Shown here piece after piece: positions 2,414 through 9,910 of a DNA stretch of 64,000 nucleotides. Numbering within the stretch: position 1 is the stretch's first letter; each line of letters starts with the position of its first letter. The notes beneath the pieces were generated by a model that worked only from the letters and a program-made list of their open reading frames with translations, made no database searches and had not been told where the DNA came from. This DNA is from Actinomycetes bacterium (GTDB lineage Bacteria; Actinomycetota; Thermoleophilia; RBG-16-64-13). A program made the position numbers and the translations under genes. The stretch spans positions 124,001 to 188,000 of the forward strand of contig JAGXFV010000028.1 in assembly GCA_024637095.1 (NCBI GenBank), written 5' to 3'.

Positions 2414-4428
2414 CGCCGGGGAGCACTTGTCCCGGCCCCGAGGTCAGGAGCGCGTGCAACCTCGACTGCGGAGACCGGTGCCTCCTCCTCGTGAGCCGCA
2501 CGGCCTCCGGTCTGCAAATCCGGCCCGACGAGAGCGATTCCTGGACCAACGGGCTGACCTGCGGAAAGATCCTTCGCTATCCGGAACGCCTGGCGAGCCC
2601 GTCGCGTATCCGCGAGCCCCAACTCAAGCAAGCCGACGGCATCTGGCGCACGGCAAGCTGGGAGGAGGCTTGGACCCGGATAATCCCCGCCCTGGAGAAG
2701 GCGCTGGAATCCGATCCCGCCTCGGTACTCTTTCTCAGAGGTAGCGGTTCGCTGGGAAGGAGCAAGGCCCACCTGGACCACGTGTTTCGCCGTCTGGGGG
2801 CCCGCTCGACTCGGGGAAGCCTCTGCGACGAGGCCGGCATCGCGGCGCTGGAGCAGGACTGGGGTTCCCTGGACATGAACGACCCCCAGGAGATCGATGC
2901 TGCGGAGGCTGTGGTTCTCTGGGGAAAGCACCCAAGGGCCTGCTCCACGCACACTGCCGCCGCGGTTCGCCGGGCTCGGCGACGGGGAGCGCCGGTGATC
3001 GCGGTGAATCCCGACTCGGCGGCGGTGGCCGGTCTCTCCACTGAGGTCATCCGGATTCTGCCCGGAGCAGACCGCTTCCTGGCCCTGGCGGTGGCAAAGC
3101 GTCTCCTGGAAGATGATGGCTTTCCCCAAGAGGCGGACCGGCTCGCCGGACTGAGGGAGTTCCGTTCGCTCTGTCGACATTGGGAGACCGGCAACCTGGC
3201 AGAGGCTGCCGGGTGCTCGGAGGACGAGATCGAGCTTCTGGCCCGCACCTACGCCTCGACCACCCGAGTCGCAACCCTCGTGGGTTGGGGCCTCCAGCGC
3301 TACCTCCACGGTGGGGAGAACGTCCGCGCCATAGACACCCTCTGTCTGATCGCGGGGACGATCGGCCGGGAGGGTGGCGGCCTCTACTACGGTCTGCCTT
3401 CTAACCGCGGCTTTGCACCCCTGCCCCACGCCTACCCCACCCCGCCAGAGCCGCTGTCCCTGCCGCGACTGGGCCGGGAGTTGGCCACACGCGGCGCCGG
3501 CATCGAGTTCGCCTGGATCGCCGCCGCCAACCCGGTGAATCAGTGTCCGGACAGCGCGGCGGTGGCCGAGGGCCTGGCGGGCGTGCCCACGGTGGTCGTG
3601 GTGGATGCCTTCTGGACCGACACCGCCCGGAGCGCCTCCGTGGTCCTGCCGCCGGCACTCTGGCTGGAGGAGGAGGATGTCGTCGGTTCCTGGTGGCGCA
3701 AAGGGCTCGCAGCAGTCCGCAAGGCGACGGAGCCCCCGGCCCAGTGCCGCACGGACTGGGAGATCACCTCGGAGCTGGAACGCAGACTGGGCCTTGAAGC
3801 CCACTACCCCGACCTCGACTCGTGGCTGAACGCCTCGCTCCCCTCGGAGTGCGGCGGTCTCGACCGGCTGCGCCGCGAGACCTGGTGCGAATTGCCCCAT
3901 GACCCGGTGGTCTTCCGTGACGGCTCTGCCCACGCCGATGGGCGTTTCCGCCTGCTCGACAGCCTTTCTCCGCCCGAACCGCCCGAACCGCCCGAAACGC
4001 CCGAAACGCCCGATCTATCAGGCGCCGAGAGACCTCTGCGCTTACTCAGCCTCATCCGCCGCGAGGCCATGCACTCGCAGATACTTCCCGAGAATCAGCG
4101 CGGGTGGGATTCCGACGACGGGCTGGGGCTGCCAATGCGCATGAATCCCGAGACGGCGCGTTCGCGCAACCTCGCGCCTGGAGACACCGTCGAACTCGAG
4201 GCTTCCGACCACCGCCTGACCGGCCGGTTACTCTTCGACGAAGGCCTGGTCCCCGGGGTGGTGGCCTGTCCCCGCGACGGCTGGGTGCAGTTCGGCCTGG
4301 GACCCAATCTGCTCACCGCCGACCTGACCAGCGATATGGGCGAAACCGCGGCCTTCTACGAGACCCGGGTGGCCGTGCGGGCGGGGTCCAGCGAGAAGGC
4401 CCGGCGAAGCCGGCCATCGAGCGAGTAA
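2410..4428 (+). CDS. Molybdopterin-dependent oxidoreductase (formate dehydrogenase/DMSO reductase superfamily)
   Basis: Protein of 672 aa with an N-terminal 4Fe-4S site: Cys residues in SACNLDCGDRCLLLV and a fourth in GLTCGKILRYPER, followed by the molybdopterin oxidoreductase fold and a C-terminal MGD-binding domain (about 555-650: NPETARSRNLAPGDTVEL, VACPRDGWVQFG). No twin-arginine signal is seen, so it is probably cytosolic. TTG 2410 was chosen because the Fe-S motif starts just after it and the codon overlaps the previous stop; the frame itself opens earlier at 2251. A Pro-Glu repeat (3970-4014) separates the last two domains. The electron partner and substrate are unknown; formate or another small molecule is possible. 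Its last 73 bp overlap the opposing gene at 4356. Confidence 0.85.
   Translation: MTPGSTCPGPEVRSACNLDCGDRCLLLVSRTASGLQIRPDESDSWTNGLTCGKILRYPERLASPSRIREPQLKQADGIWRTASWEEAWTRIIPALEKALESDPASVLFLRGSGSLGRSKAHLDHVFRRLGARSTRGSLCDEAGIAALEQDWGSLDMNDPQEIDAAEAVVLWGKHPRACSTHTAAAVRRARRRGAPVIAVNPDSAAVAGLSTEVIRILPGADRFLALAVAKRLLEDDGFPQEADRLAGLREFRSLCRHWETGNLAEAAGCSEDEIELLARTYASTTRVATLVGWGLQRYLHGGENVRAIDTLCLIAGTIGREGGGLYYGLPSNRGFAPLPHAYPTPPEPLSLPRLGRELATRGAGIEFAWIAAANPVNQCPDSAAVAEGLAGVPTVVVVDAFWTDTARSASVVLPPALWLEEEDVVGSWWRKGLAAVRKATEPPAQCRTDWEITSELERRLGLEAHYPDLDSWLNASLPSECGGLDRLRRETWCELPHDPVVFRDGSAHADGRFRLLDSLSPPEPPEPPETPETPDLSGAERPLRLLSLIRREAMHSQILPENQRGWDSDDGLGLPMRMNPETARSRNLAPGDTVELEASDHRLTGRLLFDEGLVPGVVACPRDGWVQFGLGPNLLTADLTSDMGETAAFYETRVAVRAGSSEKARRSRPSSE
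3970..4014 (+). repeat. Five tandem 9-bp units encoding a Pro-Glu linker
   Basis: Five successive 9-bp units, CCGCCCGAA three times then ACGCCCGAA and ACGCCCGAT, encode a PEP/PET linker inside the oxidoreductase. In-frame 9-bp steps allow linker length variation without breaking the frame. Confidence 0.85.
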
Positions 4429-5336
4429 CCCGCGCTCTTGTCGCCCAAATAGGCGCGGATGACGTCGGCGTCGGGATGGGGGGCCTGGCCCGCGAAATCG
4501 TAGACGTCCTCCCAGTTCGCCTTCGCCAGCCGACGGCCTTCGGCGATGCGCAGGCCGCTCTCGAACGACTCCCCAGCGGCCCCATTGGCCCATCGGGGTG
4601 AGATGTCCAGGAGCACGAAGGCAAGGCCCCGCAGCTTGGCGGCGTATGAGCCAAGGGCCCAGATTCTGAGCAAGGCGGCTGCCAGACGCATGTCGAGCAG
4701 TTCACGCCAATCCGGCATCAGTACTTCGCCGAGCCAATCGCTCTCCCGCTCGGGCGCCCAGCGCTTCCGCCCGGAAGCCTCATCGCCAATGTTGATCGGG
4801 CCGAGCCGCGGAGCCACCACCACGAAATGGCTGGAGGTCTCGATGCAGACCGGGAAGAGCGTTTCGTCGGATTCCGGTTCCGCGAAAGCGATGCGCGCCC
4901 GGCGCAGACTGGGCAGCAACTCATGGTTGCGGGAACCGTAACCCCAGTAGGCAACGGCGTTTTCCAGTACGGTCTCCCCCAACCACTCTTCCAACAGAAG
5001 GGCGAGCCCTCCGGTACTCTCGAGCCAACGGAACACGTTCCAGGTCACCGCCCCCGGGCTCGAATCCAGCCCGAAGCTCCGTTCCCCAGTCCCTTTCCTT
5101 GCGGCCCCAAGCAGCGCCAGGTCTTGGCGCCCGGTCCACAGCAGATTGTCGGTCTCTCTCTCGTAACGAAAAGTAGTGCGAGAAAGGAAGATGCGGTGGA
5201 GGGGGCAGCGGCGGTCCCCGGCACTGGGCACCGGTCCGGGTTCCCAGGGAGCCGACACCCCACAGCCGCGCACCGGGCATACGGCGCGGTCGGGCGGATG
5301 CTCCACTTGCGGCTGCAGCAGGGATACTCCGTACAA
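4356..5336 (-). CDS. Uncharacterised protein with N-terminal Cys-rich motif
   Basis: 326-aa protein I do not recognise with confidence. Residues about 20-48 contain CPVRGC, then 18 residues later CPLH, which looks like a zinc knuckle. A mixed alpha/beta body follows with FRYERETDNLLWTGRQDLALL, and the C-terminal third is rich in charged residues (RWAPERESDWLG, NWEDVYDFAG). The overall pattern recalls uncharacterised, possibly nuclease-like proteins of actinobacteria, but I cannot name catalytic residues. TTG 5336 is chosen because GGAGGAGG lies five bases upstream. It converges with the molybdopterin oxidoreductase and overlaps its 3' end by 73 bp. Confidence 0.7.
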   Translation of the reverse strand: MYGVSLLQPQVEHPPDRAVCPVRGCGVSAPWEPGPVPSAGDRRCPLHRIFLSRTTFRYERETDNLLWTGRQDLALLGAARKGTGERSFGLDSSPGAVTWNVFRWLESTGGLALLLEEWLGETVLENAVAYWGYGSRNHELLPSLRRARIAFAEPESDETLFPVCIETSSHFVVVAPRLGPINIGDEASGRKRWAPERESDWLGEVLMPDWRELLDMRLAAALLRIWALGSYAAKLRGLAFVLLDISPRWANGAAGESFESGLRIAEGRRLAKANWEDVYDFAGQAPHPDADVIRAYLGDKSAGYSLDGRLRRAFSLDPARTATRVS

Positions 5337-5393
5337 GATGCCTCCTCCGGTGCCGTCTTCCTCCCTAGCCCTAACGAGCGTAGAGCGCCGGCG

Positions 5394-6236
5394 TTACTCC
5401 GGTTCGCGCGGCAACCGTCTCCGGTAGAGACGCACGCCGGCATAAAGCAGCAGATTGGCGGCCAGAACGGTCAGCCCCACTGCGAGCAGCACAACGGCTT
5501 GAGCCTCCAGATCGACCATGAAGCGGTCGACGATCCCTGCGGTAATCACGGCTATCTGGGGGTCGACTATTGGGTCGAGTATCTCGGCACGAACCCGAGG
5601 GAGCGTACCCTCGACAAGCGCGGCCCCCAGCAACAAGGTCAAGCCGATGACGACGGGCGTCCAGAGACGCCGCCGCCCCAGCCAGAGGCCTGTCGTCAAG
5701 AGCAGCGCACCGGCGACGCCAACCGGCCAGGTCCAACGTTCGGCGGGGCCTCTCAGGCGCCAGAGTTCGGGAACCTCGTCGTCGCCGGCGATCAACACCG
5801 GCTGCAGGCTATCCAGGGGAAGGAAGCTCGAGACCAGATCGGCGTCGATCCCGAGAACCGCCTCGATGAGCAACGGGTATTCCGCAGCCGGGTCCAGAAC
5901 GATGTCCTGGCTCTCCGCCGACACCGCCGCCTCCTGAATGCGCCGGCCCGTACGGACCAATACCGGGGCCATTTGCGGCCGTGCGAGAAAACGGTCGATC
6001 GTCCGGATGGCGGAGTCGCGGTCCAGAAGCGCCACCGGCGGCAGTGTCTGTTCCAGATAGGTCCAGGTCTCCGTGGCCACCGCCCGTCGGCCTTCGTCCG
6101 AGCTGAGCGCCGCCACGGCTTCCGTCCGAAAGCGCTCCTCGTTGAGCAAGGCCGTATCCACCCAGCGGCCGAACGCGCCCAGCGCGAGCAGCAGCACTCC
6201 CAGAAACAAAAGCATGATTGTAAGCGGCCGTGGCAT
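5394..6236 (-). CDS. Uncharacterised membrane protein
   Basis: 280-aa protein with an N-terminal transmembrane helix (PLTIMLLFLGVLLLALGAFG), an extracytoplasmic segment of about 140 residues (acidic, with LNEERFRTEAVAALSS), and three C-terminal helices (about 175-265) ending in RLYRRRLPREPE. ATG 6236 is preceded by GGGGAGG; the frame opens earlier but the hydrophobic N-terminus fits this start. No enzyme motif is visible. Actinobacterial membrane proteins of this layout are usually annotated hypothetical. It is divergent from the membrane-anchored protein at 6373. Confidence 0.75.
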   Translation of the reverse strand: MPRPLTIMLLFLGVLLLALGAFGRWVDTALLNEERFRTEAVAALSSDEGRRAVATETWTYLEQTLPPVALLDRDSAIRTIDRFLARPQMAPVLVRTGRRIQEAAVSAESQDIVLDPAAEYPLLIEAVLGIDADLVSSFLPLDSLQPVLIAGDDEVPELWRLRGPAERWTWPVGVAGALLLTTGLWLGRRRLWTPVVIGLTLLLGAALVEGTLPRVRAEILDPIVDPQIAVITAGIVDRFMVDLEAQAVVLLAVGLTVLAANLLLYAGVRLYRRRLPREPE

Positions 6237-6304
6237 CAGAGATGACCTCCCCCCAAACCGGCGGCAGGATGCGCGCCGGTTTTCCGCCTCCCCCGGATAT
6301 CGCG

Positions 6305-6310
6305 TAGAAT
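6305..6310 (+). promoter_or_regulatory. Possible -10 element TAGAAT
   Basis: TAGAAT lies 62 bp upstream of the ATG at 6373, in the divergent intergenic region. The same hexamer precedes metG, the rhomboid gene and tRNA-Leu in this window. No convincing -35 is seen. Confidence 0.35.
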
Positions 6311-6372
6311 GGCCGCCTGTCCGCTCGTTCATTGGACCTGATCACGGCCCGGCGAAAGGAATACTGGAGAGC

Positions 6373-6948
6373 ATGGCTAAACGCGGCAACGACCAACCGA
6401 CCGGAGGCGGCCCTTTGGGCTGGTGGCGGCGTCGGGACGAGATGCAGAAGGTGCTCATGCTGGTCGTATTGGTTATCGGCGGTTGGTTTCTCTGGCAATC
6501 CGGCGTGCTGCCCGGAATCGGCTCGGACGACGGCACGACCTCGGTGGCGGACGGTGAAGCGACCTCGGATTCGGTAGCCGTGCCCACCACGGAGCTCCAG
6601 CCCTTCGATACTTACCAGGATCAGTCCGAAGAAGTTGACTATGACGAGCTCAAGGCAAAGGCCGAAGACTACCGCGGCCGAATGATCACCTTCACGGGCG
6701 AGGTTGTCCAGGTCGAGCGGGACCTGGGGCTGACCGTGATGAAGCTCGCCATCACCCGCCTCTCCGAAGGCTTCGACCCGGATGACGCCGTGGTGGTGGG
6801 CTACGGCGGCCAAGAAGAGATAGTCGAAGGAGACGTTCTTACCGTCTGGGGCGACGGATTGGGCACACTGGAACTCCCCGAGGAGGAACAGACCAAAGGG
6901 CTCCCCTCCGTGCTGGCAAAGTACATAAAGGTGGGCGAGAGCTCTTAG
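6373..6948 (+). CDS. Membrane-anchored protein with OB-fold-like domain
   Basis: 191-aa protein. A basic, Gly-rich cytosolic start (GGGPLGWWRRRDEMQK) precedes one membrane helix (VLMLVVLVIGGWFLWQSG). After a Thr/Ser/Asp-rich linker comes a domain from about residue 88 (YDELKAKAEDYRGRMITFTGEV) whose beta pattern, with VVVGYG and VEGDVLTVWGD, resembles small tRNA_anti-like OB-fold domains of secreted proteins. The ATG at 6373 has GGAG close upstream and a GAAAGGA 13 bases before. The function is unknown; it probably acts on the outer face of the membrane. Confidence 0.72.
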   Translation: MAKRGNDQPTGGGPLGWWRRRDEMQKVLMLVVLVIGGWFLWQSGVLPGIGSDDGTTSVADGEATSDSVAVPTTELQPFDTYQDQSEEVDYDELKAKAEDYRGRMITFTGEVVQVERDLGLTVMKLAITRLSEGFDPDDAVVVGYGGQEEIVEGDVLTVWGDGLGTLELPEEEQTKGLPSVLAKYIKVGESS

Positions 6949-6967
6949 TCAGAATCGGCGATAAATC

Positions 6968-7126
6968 TCAGCCTTCGGCCGGGAAGGCGATCGTGCTGAG
7001 CAGCGCGTTCTCCGCCTGACGCGAGTCGGTCTCGTGGCTTAGGAACTCGGGCTCGGGTCCGTTACTCCAGGTGGGGATGTATCTCTCGGCAATCACCCGC
7101 CGCCGCTTGCCAATTGGTTCATGCAT
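6968..7126 (-). pseudogene. Internally deleted sensory rhodopsin transducer (ASRT family)
   Basis: A 52-codon frame, MHEPIGKRRRVIAERYIP followed by TWSNGPEPEFLSHET, matches the N-terminus of the roughly 125-aa Anabaena sensory rhodopsin transducer family. It then jumps directly to DSRQAENALLSTIAFPAEG, the family C-terminus. About 70 central codons, the main part of the beta-sandwich, are missing, but the frame is kept and the gene still has a perfect GGAGGAGG eight to ten bases before its ATG. The family homology is recalled from memory, not searched. No rhodopsin gene is nearby. It is either a decaying gene, a functional miniature or an assembly deletion. Confidence 0.75.
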
Positions 7127-7209
7127 TTGGCCTCCCTCCTCCAACCGCTGACATGGCTATTCCGTGGTTGGCCCCTCACGCACCTAAGCATTCGCGAGGC
7201 AGCAATTAG

Positions 7210-7243
7210 AGAGGGACCTCGGACATCGATCCGAAGTCCCTCT
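7210..7243 (-). terminator. Strong hairpin, probable terminator of the PRC-barrel gene
   Basis: AGAGGGAC-C-TCGGA, a six-base loop, then TCCGA-A-GTCCCTCT: a 13-bp stem with one mismatch. It starts 85 bp downstream of the PRC-barrel stop on the minus strand, between it and the truncated transducer gene. It lacks a clean T tract, so it could also be an mRNA stability element. Confidence 0.5.
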
Positions 7244-7327
7244 ATCCTTGGCCCGTATTGAAACGCGCAGCCCGCATATCCCAAGCCCCGCATGTCTCAA
7301 GCGGTCCAGGCGTGGCGTGTTGCGTGA

Positions 7328-7669
7328 CTAGCCGTAGAACTTATCGATCTCCGTGGCAAAGGTGTCGGCCAACATATCGGGCCAGTTCTCCTTGTCGAAA
7401 CCCGGAGCCTCTTGGAGCCTTTCCTTGTCGACGTTCAGCTTGAAGCTGTGCTTCTCCTCGTCTAGCTCGAGCGCCTTCCACGGGACCGCGAAAAGCTTGT
7501 CGCCCAGGCCGACAAACCCGCCGAACGACAGCACGGCATAAGCGAGCTTGCCGTCCACCGTGTCGAACATGAACTCCTCGATCTTGCCGAGTTCCTCGCC
7601 CTCGTAGTTGACTACCGCGTCTCCCGTAAGGGTTCCGGCGGACATGAGTCTTCTAACGTGTGTCATCAT
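7328..7669 (-). CDS. PRC-barrel domain protein
   Basis: 113-aa protein with a PRC-barrel: SAGTLTGDAVVNYEGEELGKIEEFMFDT, then GKLAYAVLSFGGFVGLGDKLFAVPWKAL, the beta pattern typical of stand-alone stress-related PRC-barrel proteins. The C-terminal 40 residues are charged (DEEKHSFKLNVDKERL, PGFDKENWPDM). Such proteins are usually cytosolic, stress-induced or RNA/photosystem-associated; the exact role is unknown. ATG 7669 is preceded by AAGGAA with five bases' spacing. Its leader contains a perfect 7-bp inverted repeat (7700-7717). Confidence 0.85.
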   Translation of the reverse strand: MMTHVRRLMSAGTLTGDAVVNYEGEELGKIEEFMFDTVDGKLAYAVLSFGGFVGLGDKLFAVPWKALELDEEKHSFKLNVDKERLQEAPGFDKENWPDMLADTFATEIDKFYG

Positions 7670-7699
7670 CGTATTCCTTGTAATCCTTGGTTCGTCTTT

Positions 7700-7717
7700 A
7701 CTTACCTTGGGGTAAGT
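7700..7717. promoter_or_regulatory. Inverted repeat ACTTACC-TTGG-GGTAAGT
   Basis: A perfect 7-bp inverted repeat with a 4-base loop lies 31 bp upstream of the PRC-barrel ATG, in the divergent region shared with the small gene at 7779. It may be an operator for a dimeric regulator or a small hairpin in the leader. The regulator is not identified. Confidence 0.45.
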
Positions 7718-7778
7718 GATGCCCGCAATCCCGGCCAGAGCAAACAGCATATGTCACTACCAACAAAAGGAGCGCGCA

Positions 7779-8024
7779 TTGGACGGCTACCAGTACCTGG
7801 AGGCAGTTTTCAGCCGGATGATCCGCTGCGGAAATGAGCGGCGGCCGGCAGAGAAGGACCTCCGCACGCGCTTGATTTCAGTAGTCCAGGAAGTGATCTC
7901 CCCTGAAGACGCCGAACGCATCGCCGATGCACTCGACGGGGAACTGGACCTGTGGGAGCGCGAAATCTCGGGCGAGGCGGACAGTCTGGCCGAATCCCCC
8001 GGTCAATCGGGAGGCGCCATTTGA
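7779..8024 (+). CDS. Small acidic hypothetical protein
   Basis: 81-aa predicted cytosolic protein with helical, acidic composition (DAERIADALDGELDLWEREI) and no recognised domain. TTG 7779 follows AAAAGGAG with a six-base gap, a strong ribosome binding site. It is divergent from the PRC-barrel gene. I cannot assign a function; its shortness makes it only moderately certain. Confidence 0.5.
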   Translation: MDGYQYLEAVFSRMIRCGNERRPAEKDLRTRLISVVQEVISPEDAERIADALDGELDLWEREISGEADSLAESPGQSGGAI

Positions 8025-8261
8025 CCTGAGCGCTCCGCGCCACCGGGCCCGAATCCCCATCCGGCGCCGAACAAGGTGCGGTTCCAAGCGACCCTCCACC
8101 CGCGCCCCCACCTATGGGGCGCGGCCCCTTTCCCCCCTCTCCCACCGGGTTGATTCTCCGGCGTGACGCGGTCAGATCAGTGCAGGCCCCTCCGGGTTGT
8201 TTTCCTCCCTGCCACTTTAACCACCCATTAACCTACCAAGGGTCTACCATTGATGACGCTG

Positions 8262-8270
8262 TGGTATACT
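8262..8270 (+). promoter_or_regulatory. Extended -10 promoter TGGTATACT
   Basis: TGG followed by TATACT is a good extended -10 element in a locally AT-richer stretch. Transcription would start near 8277, about 37 bp before the 33-codon gene at 8314. Confidence 0.5.
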
Positions 8271-8313
8271 CCTGTCAGCCCAAAAAGGACTTAATGGTTA
8301 GAAAGGGGGCAAG

Positions 8314-8415
8314 ATGAAAGACACCGCAACGCAGATCGGTCAAGACCTCGGAGGACTGCTCGTTTCCCTCGCCGCCTACGGCACCGGTTGGGTGGTTCTC
8401 GGCTGGCTCGTCTAG
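8314..8415 (+). CDS. Putative 33-aa membrane peptide
   Basis: The frame begins MKDTATQIGQDLGGLLVSLA and ends YGTGWVVLGWLV, one hydrophobic helix of about 22 residues after a polar start. It has GAAAGGGGG five bases before ATG and an extended -10 promoter 44 bp upstream, so both expression signals are present. A short GAGCC...GGCTC hairpin followed by TTCTTT (about 8425-8450) could end the transcript. The family is unrecognised; it could be a small membrane regulator or a toxin-like peptide. Support comes from the signals, not homology. Confidence 0.45.
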   Translation: MKDTATQIGQDLGGLLVSLAAYGTGWVVLGWLV

Positions 8416-8807
8416 AGCCGGTCGAGCCCGCCCCATCAGGCTCTTCTTTCCCTAGAGGCCGGTGGAGCCTCGCTTGTTCGGGTTGCTCCGTCCCGGAGCG
8501 TGTAACCACACTAATCTCCCCGAGCCGCTCCATGAACGCCCTCTCCACCAAGGCAAGATCTTCGACCCGCGCATGCAGTTCCGGCTGCAGCTGCAGCAGC
8601 CGATCCACGGCCCTTAGCAAGCCTCGACTTTCGAACCCCCACAGTCAGCGGATTCTACTAGGACCCTCCCCGTATTGGCGCCTTTTCGCATGCGACCACG
8701 CAAGAACTTCATGCTAGGTTGACACCGCTGAACATTCGTAGTTGCACGCAACGGGTCAATACCGGACCATTGACGGAATATGGCCGGTCGATGCAAGCAG
8801 AGGGGTC
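8416..8807. other. Intergenic stretch without a confident gene
   Basis: No well-supported gene. On the minus strand about 8500-8620 a GC3-rich frame reads AVDRLLQLQPELHARVEDLA and VERAFMERLGE, which looks protein-like, but it has a stop just upstream, a degenerate continuation and no ribosome binding site. It may be a gene remnant. Given its position in the decayed island, I list it only as unexplained sequence. Confidence 0.35.
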
Positions 8808-9237
8808 ATGACAGGAAAGATCGCGCTACTCGGGATGTTGCTAACGTTAATTCTGGCAGCACCTGCGCTCGCGTTCACCGACGCACCCGGCAGCCATCCG
8901 AACTACGAAGCAATCAACGCCCTACAAGAGTGGGGGATCATCGACGGCTTCGACGACGGCACGTTCAAACCCAATGACGGGGTGAAGCGGCCAGTTCGCT
9001 AAGATGGCCGCGGGAATGCTGAATCTCGCCGTGACTGAGGGCCTGACTTCCCCCTTCACAGACCTCGGCGCCAACGACGCCACCCTCTATCCTCACGAGT
9101 TCGTGGCAGTGACCTGTGCAAGTGGGATCACCAAGGGTGTCACACCGTCGACCTTCAATCCCTGGGCTTACATCACTCGCGCCCAGTCGATCACCACGTC
9201 CATCAGGGCCATGCAGAACCTCTATCAGGTGAGCTAG
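8808..9237 (+). pseudogene. SLH (S-layer homology) domain protein, frameshifted
   Basis: Starts at ATG 8808 after AGAGGGG. A signal peptide (KIALLGMLLTLILAAPALAF) leads into an SLH repeat (FTDAPGSHPNYEAINALQEW, then GIIDGFDDGTFKPNDGVKR). At about 8990-9000 the frame breaks: the expected KRAQFAKM reads KRPVR-stop, and the frame one base later continues QFAKMAAGMLNLAVTEG. It then covers a second SLH repeat with CASGITKGVTPSTFNPW and ends NLYQVS. Two lost bases (or one extra) would explain it. SLH domains anchor proteins to cell-wall polymer. The two parts total about 143 residues with nothing attached, so the gene was short even when intact. Confidence 0.8.
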
Positions 9238-9396: not shown

Positions 9397-9585
9397 CTTT
9401 TAGGGTATCGAACACACCGCTCTGCTAGCCCGTTCACGCCCGTTACCCCCTCGGTTGGCGCTGGGGCAGCGCCCTCCTAAACCCGTACAGATTCCGAGCC
9501 GCTATGCCGACGACGACTGTCTGAAGGAGCCCAGGTGGCTCTACTACCGGCCGGAACCTGCAAGAGGCGAACGGGACTTGGCCGC

Positions 9586-9910
9586 CTGCTTACCCGCTGG
9601 CGGCAGACCTACCCGGAGTTCTGCGACTCCGGTGCAGGAGAGCATCGCCAAGACCCGCACCTTCTACCTGCCGAGGGAGTACCCCAAGCATCTGGAGAGC
9701 ACCAATATGCTGGAGCGAGTGAACGAGGAGATCGAACGGCGCAACCGCGTCGTGCACATCTTCCCGAACCAGTAGAGCTGCGTGCGCTTGATCCAGGCAC
9801 TGGCCGCCGAGACCGTTGTGGGCCGACTCGAGGAGCACCTCTATCTCAACCTGCAACTGCTGATCGAGCAGAAGAAAGAGGAGATCCGACGGCTGGAGGA
9901 GGCGGCCTGA
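9586..9910 (+). mobile_element. Degraded IS256-family transposase, C-terminal remnant
   Basis: Recognisable transposase C-terminus: LLTRWRQTYPEFCDS in one frame; then after a frameshift near 9640 TFYLPREYPKHLESTNMLER and VNEEIERRNRVVHIFPN in the next. An in-frame TAG (9773-9775) interrupts it before SCVRLIQALAAETVVGRL and EEHLYLNLQLLIEQKKEE. This matches the IS256/Mutator-type C-terminal region, whose final catalytic Glu lies in the LER-x-NEEI segment. The DDE N-terminal part is absent. At least one frameshift plus one nonsense codon make it non-functional. Confidence 0.82.

Follow-up and report, generated by a model that had tools for sequence, protein, structure and literature searches.

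A 52-codon reading frame in a thermoleophilian genome is probably an ASRT pseudogene left by a recent in-frame deletion

When a short reading frame joins the two ends of a known protein family and lacks its middle, is it a new miniature protein, or what is left of a broken gene? The question arises at complement(6968..7126) of the window, a stretch of 64,000 nucleotides from an Actinomycetes bacterium (Thermoleophilia; assembly GCA_024637095.1, contig JAGXFV010000028.1). A preliminary description had named this frame a miniature sensory-rhodopsin transducer (ASRT) whose middle was deleted in frame with neither stop nor frameshift. The frame does consist of 52 open codons and a TGA stop, on the minus strand, which that description left unstated, and its translation is MHEPIGKRRRVIAERYIPTWSNGPEPEFLSHETDSRQAENALLSTIAFPAEG. 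The family identity is equally secure: PF07100, with a curated cut-off of 25 bits, matches the frame at 33.9 bits (E 3.4e-8; 29.4 bits in the genome-wide search), the match being divided between profile positions 1-29 and 103-119 of 119. The comparison with Anabaena ASRT that the preliminary description proposed gave a phmmer E of 8e-13 to 2II7 over the collinear pieces 4-33 and 106-122 and, together with the PF07100 match, indicates that the resemblance is not chance. The frame fuses ASRT residues 1-33 (7028..7126, minus) to residues 108-126 (6971..7027, minus), and the junction-spanning stretch reads YIPTWSNGPEPEFLSHETDSR. Both pieces align without gaps to the ASRT or stand-alone ASRAH-domain family (PF07100; PDB 2II7 from Anabaena and 1NC7, TM1070), and the SHET and DSRQAENALLSTIAFP motifs are retained.

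The origin of the fusion is indicated by the one further genome of this genus included in the search, the MAG 'Actinomycetota bacterium isolate Soudan_30', whose contig JADQBG010000007.1 encodes an identical ASRT and supplied the Soudan_30 locus of our locus set (L007). At the same locus as the remnant, this sister genome carries an intact ASRT of 126 amino acids (PF07100 1-119, E 2.4e-56). The region flanking ASRT is about 87% identical overall between the two genomes: window 4033-7027 aligns to 5432-8400 of the sister locus (L006) at 87% identity, and window 7024-7147 to 8619-8742 of the same locus at 85%. Exactly 222 bp of the sister gene, or 74 of its 126 codons, have no counterpart in the window, the junction lying at 7027..7028 (minus). 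The in-frame internal loss proposed in the preliminary description therefore stands, while its count of about 70 codons becomes 74 when measured against the intact sister gene. Because this gene is whole at the corresponding locus of the nearest relative, the remnant is most likely a pseudogene rather than a new miniature protein; two marks of a pseudogene are present, an intact orthologue in the matching position of a relative and a disabling change here. In the same area, some 23 bp lie between the stop codon of the 6373-6948 gene and that of the ASRT remnant (window 6945-6970); this spacer is absent from the sister genome, where the ends of the ASRT gene and of the counterpart of the 6373-6948 gene overlap.

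A missing middle might also be produced by assembly, if the population possessed a full-length ASRT and the contig of a mixed strain sample had skipped 222 bp. The window's genome is a draft of 49 contigs, and the C-terminal piece is identical to the sister gene at 57 of 57 bases although the region is only about 87% identical, both of which would be compatible with such an artefact. We considered whether this 57-base identity was abnormal and rejected the idea: it falls within an exact run of 58 bp, which is not exceptional because it ranks only third in length across the aligned region, behind runs of 63 and 59 bp. A search of the sister gene for direct repeats flanking the deletion found none in register; the break points have one base in common (G on the coding strand), so that assembly had no repeated sequence to collapse. 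The junction, moreover, sits inside a 196-kb contig, and profile and DNA searches for the missing ASRT middle across the remainder of the window's genome located it on no other contig, the other matches being chance pieces of 15-36 bp. Finally, two substitutions in the retained part of the remnant, W10R and G15R, which the preliminary description had missed, lie outside the gap and so point to lost constraint independently of the junction assembly. Overall, we consider an assembly or strain-mixture origin unlikely.

These substitutions and the deletion together remove much of what defines the family. De Souza, Iyer and Aravind (PMC2739507) describe as fold-defining the Trp at the start of strand 1, which holds the two sheets together, and the Asn that ends strand 2; within the SHEshChhN signature, they identify His and Cys as ligand contacts. 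In our alignment, W10 and G15 are identical in 39 of 39 intact homologues from many phyla; in the remnant the hallmark Trp is replaced by Arg, and the signature is reduced to SHE, with Cys35 and the hallmark Asn38 deleted. The deletion begins within strand 2 and removes residues 34-107; of the sandwich there remain strand 1, the opening residues of strand 2 and the C terminus. Compared with the family, the 52-residue remnant lacks 74 internal residues and falls short of the complete eight-stranded β-sandwich of about 120 residues. A typical family member would also be expected to bind a small molecule as a tetramer. AlphaFold models built on the same family alignment agree: the intact sister protein is predicted with confidence (pLDDT 89.6, pTM 0.82) and with strands at 7-16, 31-38, 44-52, 58-65, 69-74, 89-107 and 118-120, while the remnant is predicted to possess no strands at all (pLDDT 58.8, pTM 0.13), in keeping with the earlier suggestion that it is too short to form the sandwich.

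Could the 52-residue fusion nonetheless have been retained for a new role, for instance as an interaction peptide? The open frame without stop or frameshift, the ribosome binding site and a low dN/dS would each favour this. The ribosome binding site is retained as had been described: a Shine-Dalgarno-like purine tract, GGAGGAGGGAGG, lies upstream of the ATG at 7129..7144 (minus), and GGAGGAGGGA is common to the remnant and the intact sister gene. The open frame itself is weak evidence of function, since a deletion stays in frame by chance one time in three, and 52 codons evolving neutrally from the sister sequence remained stop-free in 89% of simulations at 2% divergence and in 51% at 13%. The dN/dS of 0.13 between remnant and sister gene rests on 8 synonymous and 4 non-synonymous differences in only 52 codons, and the intact neighbors range from 0.07 to 0.23 (169-2214 gene, 0.07; 6373-6948 gene, 0.21; gene at about 7773-8024, 0.11). 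So low a value fits recent loss, and would equally be expected of a short peptide under constraint; most simply read, the divergence arose largely while the ASRT gene was still complete, and its loss came recently. On relaxed selection the remnant gives mixed signals, W10R and G15R falling at invariant sites and the overall dN/dS staying low. Frames with a dN/dS near 1 at 1414 (+), 4827 (+) and 2215 (-) were set aside as antisense shadows of real genes. Against a functional mini-protein stand the two lost invariant residues, the absence of a predicted fold, a genome that offers neither a full-length ASRT to act on nor a rhodopsin, and the lack of the short form in every other genome searched. 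We regard this explanation as highly improbable, and the fuller proposition, that selection maintains a translated ASRT-derived peptide of 52 residues in a new role in a bacterium lacking both full ASRT and rhodopsin, as very improbable too.

The distribution of the family is consistent with a deletion pseudogene. The preliminary description had suggested that relatives be searched for the same short form, and a search through 47 GTDB loci and through 399 class and 396 phylum genomes found no fusion of the N-terminal 33 to the C-terminal 19 residues. With the hallmark Trp and Asn lost, no fold predicted and no relative sharing the form, the notion of a working miniature transducer is not borne out. 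ASRT itself is sporadic, being present in 13 of the 399 genomes of the class and, among the searched members of the window's family, only in the window's genome and its sister. Damaged copies occur elsewhere: ASRT genes appear frameshifted in Nitrospira (L018) and Azospirillum (L037) and seem to lack the N-terminal part in Myxacorys and a Verrucomicrobia MAG (L048 and L049). These broken genes suggest that decay of ASRT is nothing unusual. A literature search for short or pseudogene forms of ASRT found nothing relevant among the papers listed.

The role implied by the name fares no better than the short form. A search for microbial rhodopsin (PF01036) found no match, even with E allowed up to 10, in either the window's genome or the sister genome, drafts that are 97% and 99% complete, and the proposed transducer role is not supported. 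'Sensory-rhodopsin transducer' is here the name of a family and not a likely role. ASRT homologues in rhodopsin-free bacteria have been proposed to bind or sense sugars or other small molecules (PMC2739507), and by analogy the function lost with this gene was probably small-molecule (sugar) sensing.

The remnant's surroundings carry further traces of decay. It adjoins an intact gene for a PRC-barrel protein (PF05239; 7328..7666, minus); in the sister genome, beside the intact ASRT, this gene is recognizable by its last 27 bp only (L006 8740-9000). The two sister genomes have therefore each lost a different one of the neighbor pair. Other decay is found at 8.8-9.8 kb, where a frameshifted SLH-domain gene is followed by a transposase fragment, and the stretch around the remnant has the look of a region that is shedding dispensable genes. 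The SLH-domain gene (8805-9237, plus) has its apparent frameshift near 8999-9003, KRPVR* closing one frame and QFAKMAAGMLNLA continuing in the next, and both parts match PF00395. The fragment (9455-9775, plus) is the C-terminal part of a Mutator-family (IS256-like) transposase, matching positions 267-358 of the 379 in PF00872.

Taken together, these data make it probable, with good though incomplete confidence, that the frame is a pseudogene, what a recent in-frame deletion has left of an ordinary gene for a stand-alone cytoplasmic ASRT/ASRAH-domain protein. The ancestor of the genus would have carried a full 126-amino acid ASRT gene between the 6373-6948 gene and the PRC-barrel gene. A single, fairly recent 222-bp deletion, with break points almost without homology, probably then removed the middle and kept the frame by chance, W10R and G15R being acquired either before or after it. 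As the ribosome binding site survives, a 52-residue peptide may still be made; without most of the β-strands and both hallmark residues, it should be unfolded and degraded. The remnant resembles other deletion-type bacterial pseudogenes in its intact sister orthologue at the same place, its break points of little homology and its lost invariant residues, but differs from them in staying in frame and in retaining its ribosome binding site. It is a clear and traceable in-frame deletion pseudogene that in itself matters little; since it passes the Pfam cut-off, an automated pipeline could annotate it as an intact short protein. Its value lies in adding to the evidence that ASRT is dispensable, patchily distributed and unlinked to rhodopsin in these bacteria.
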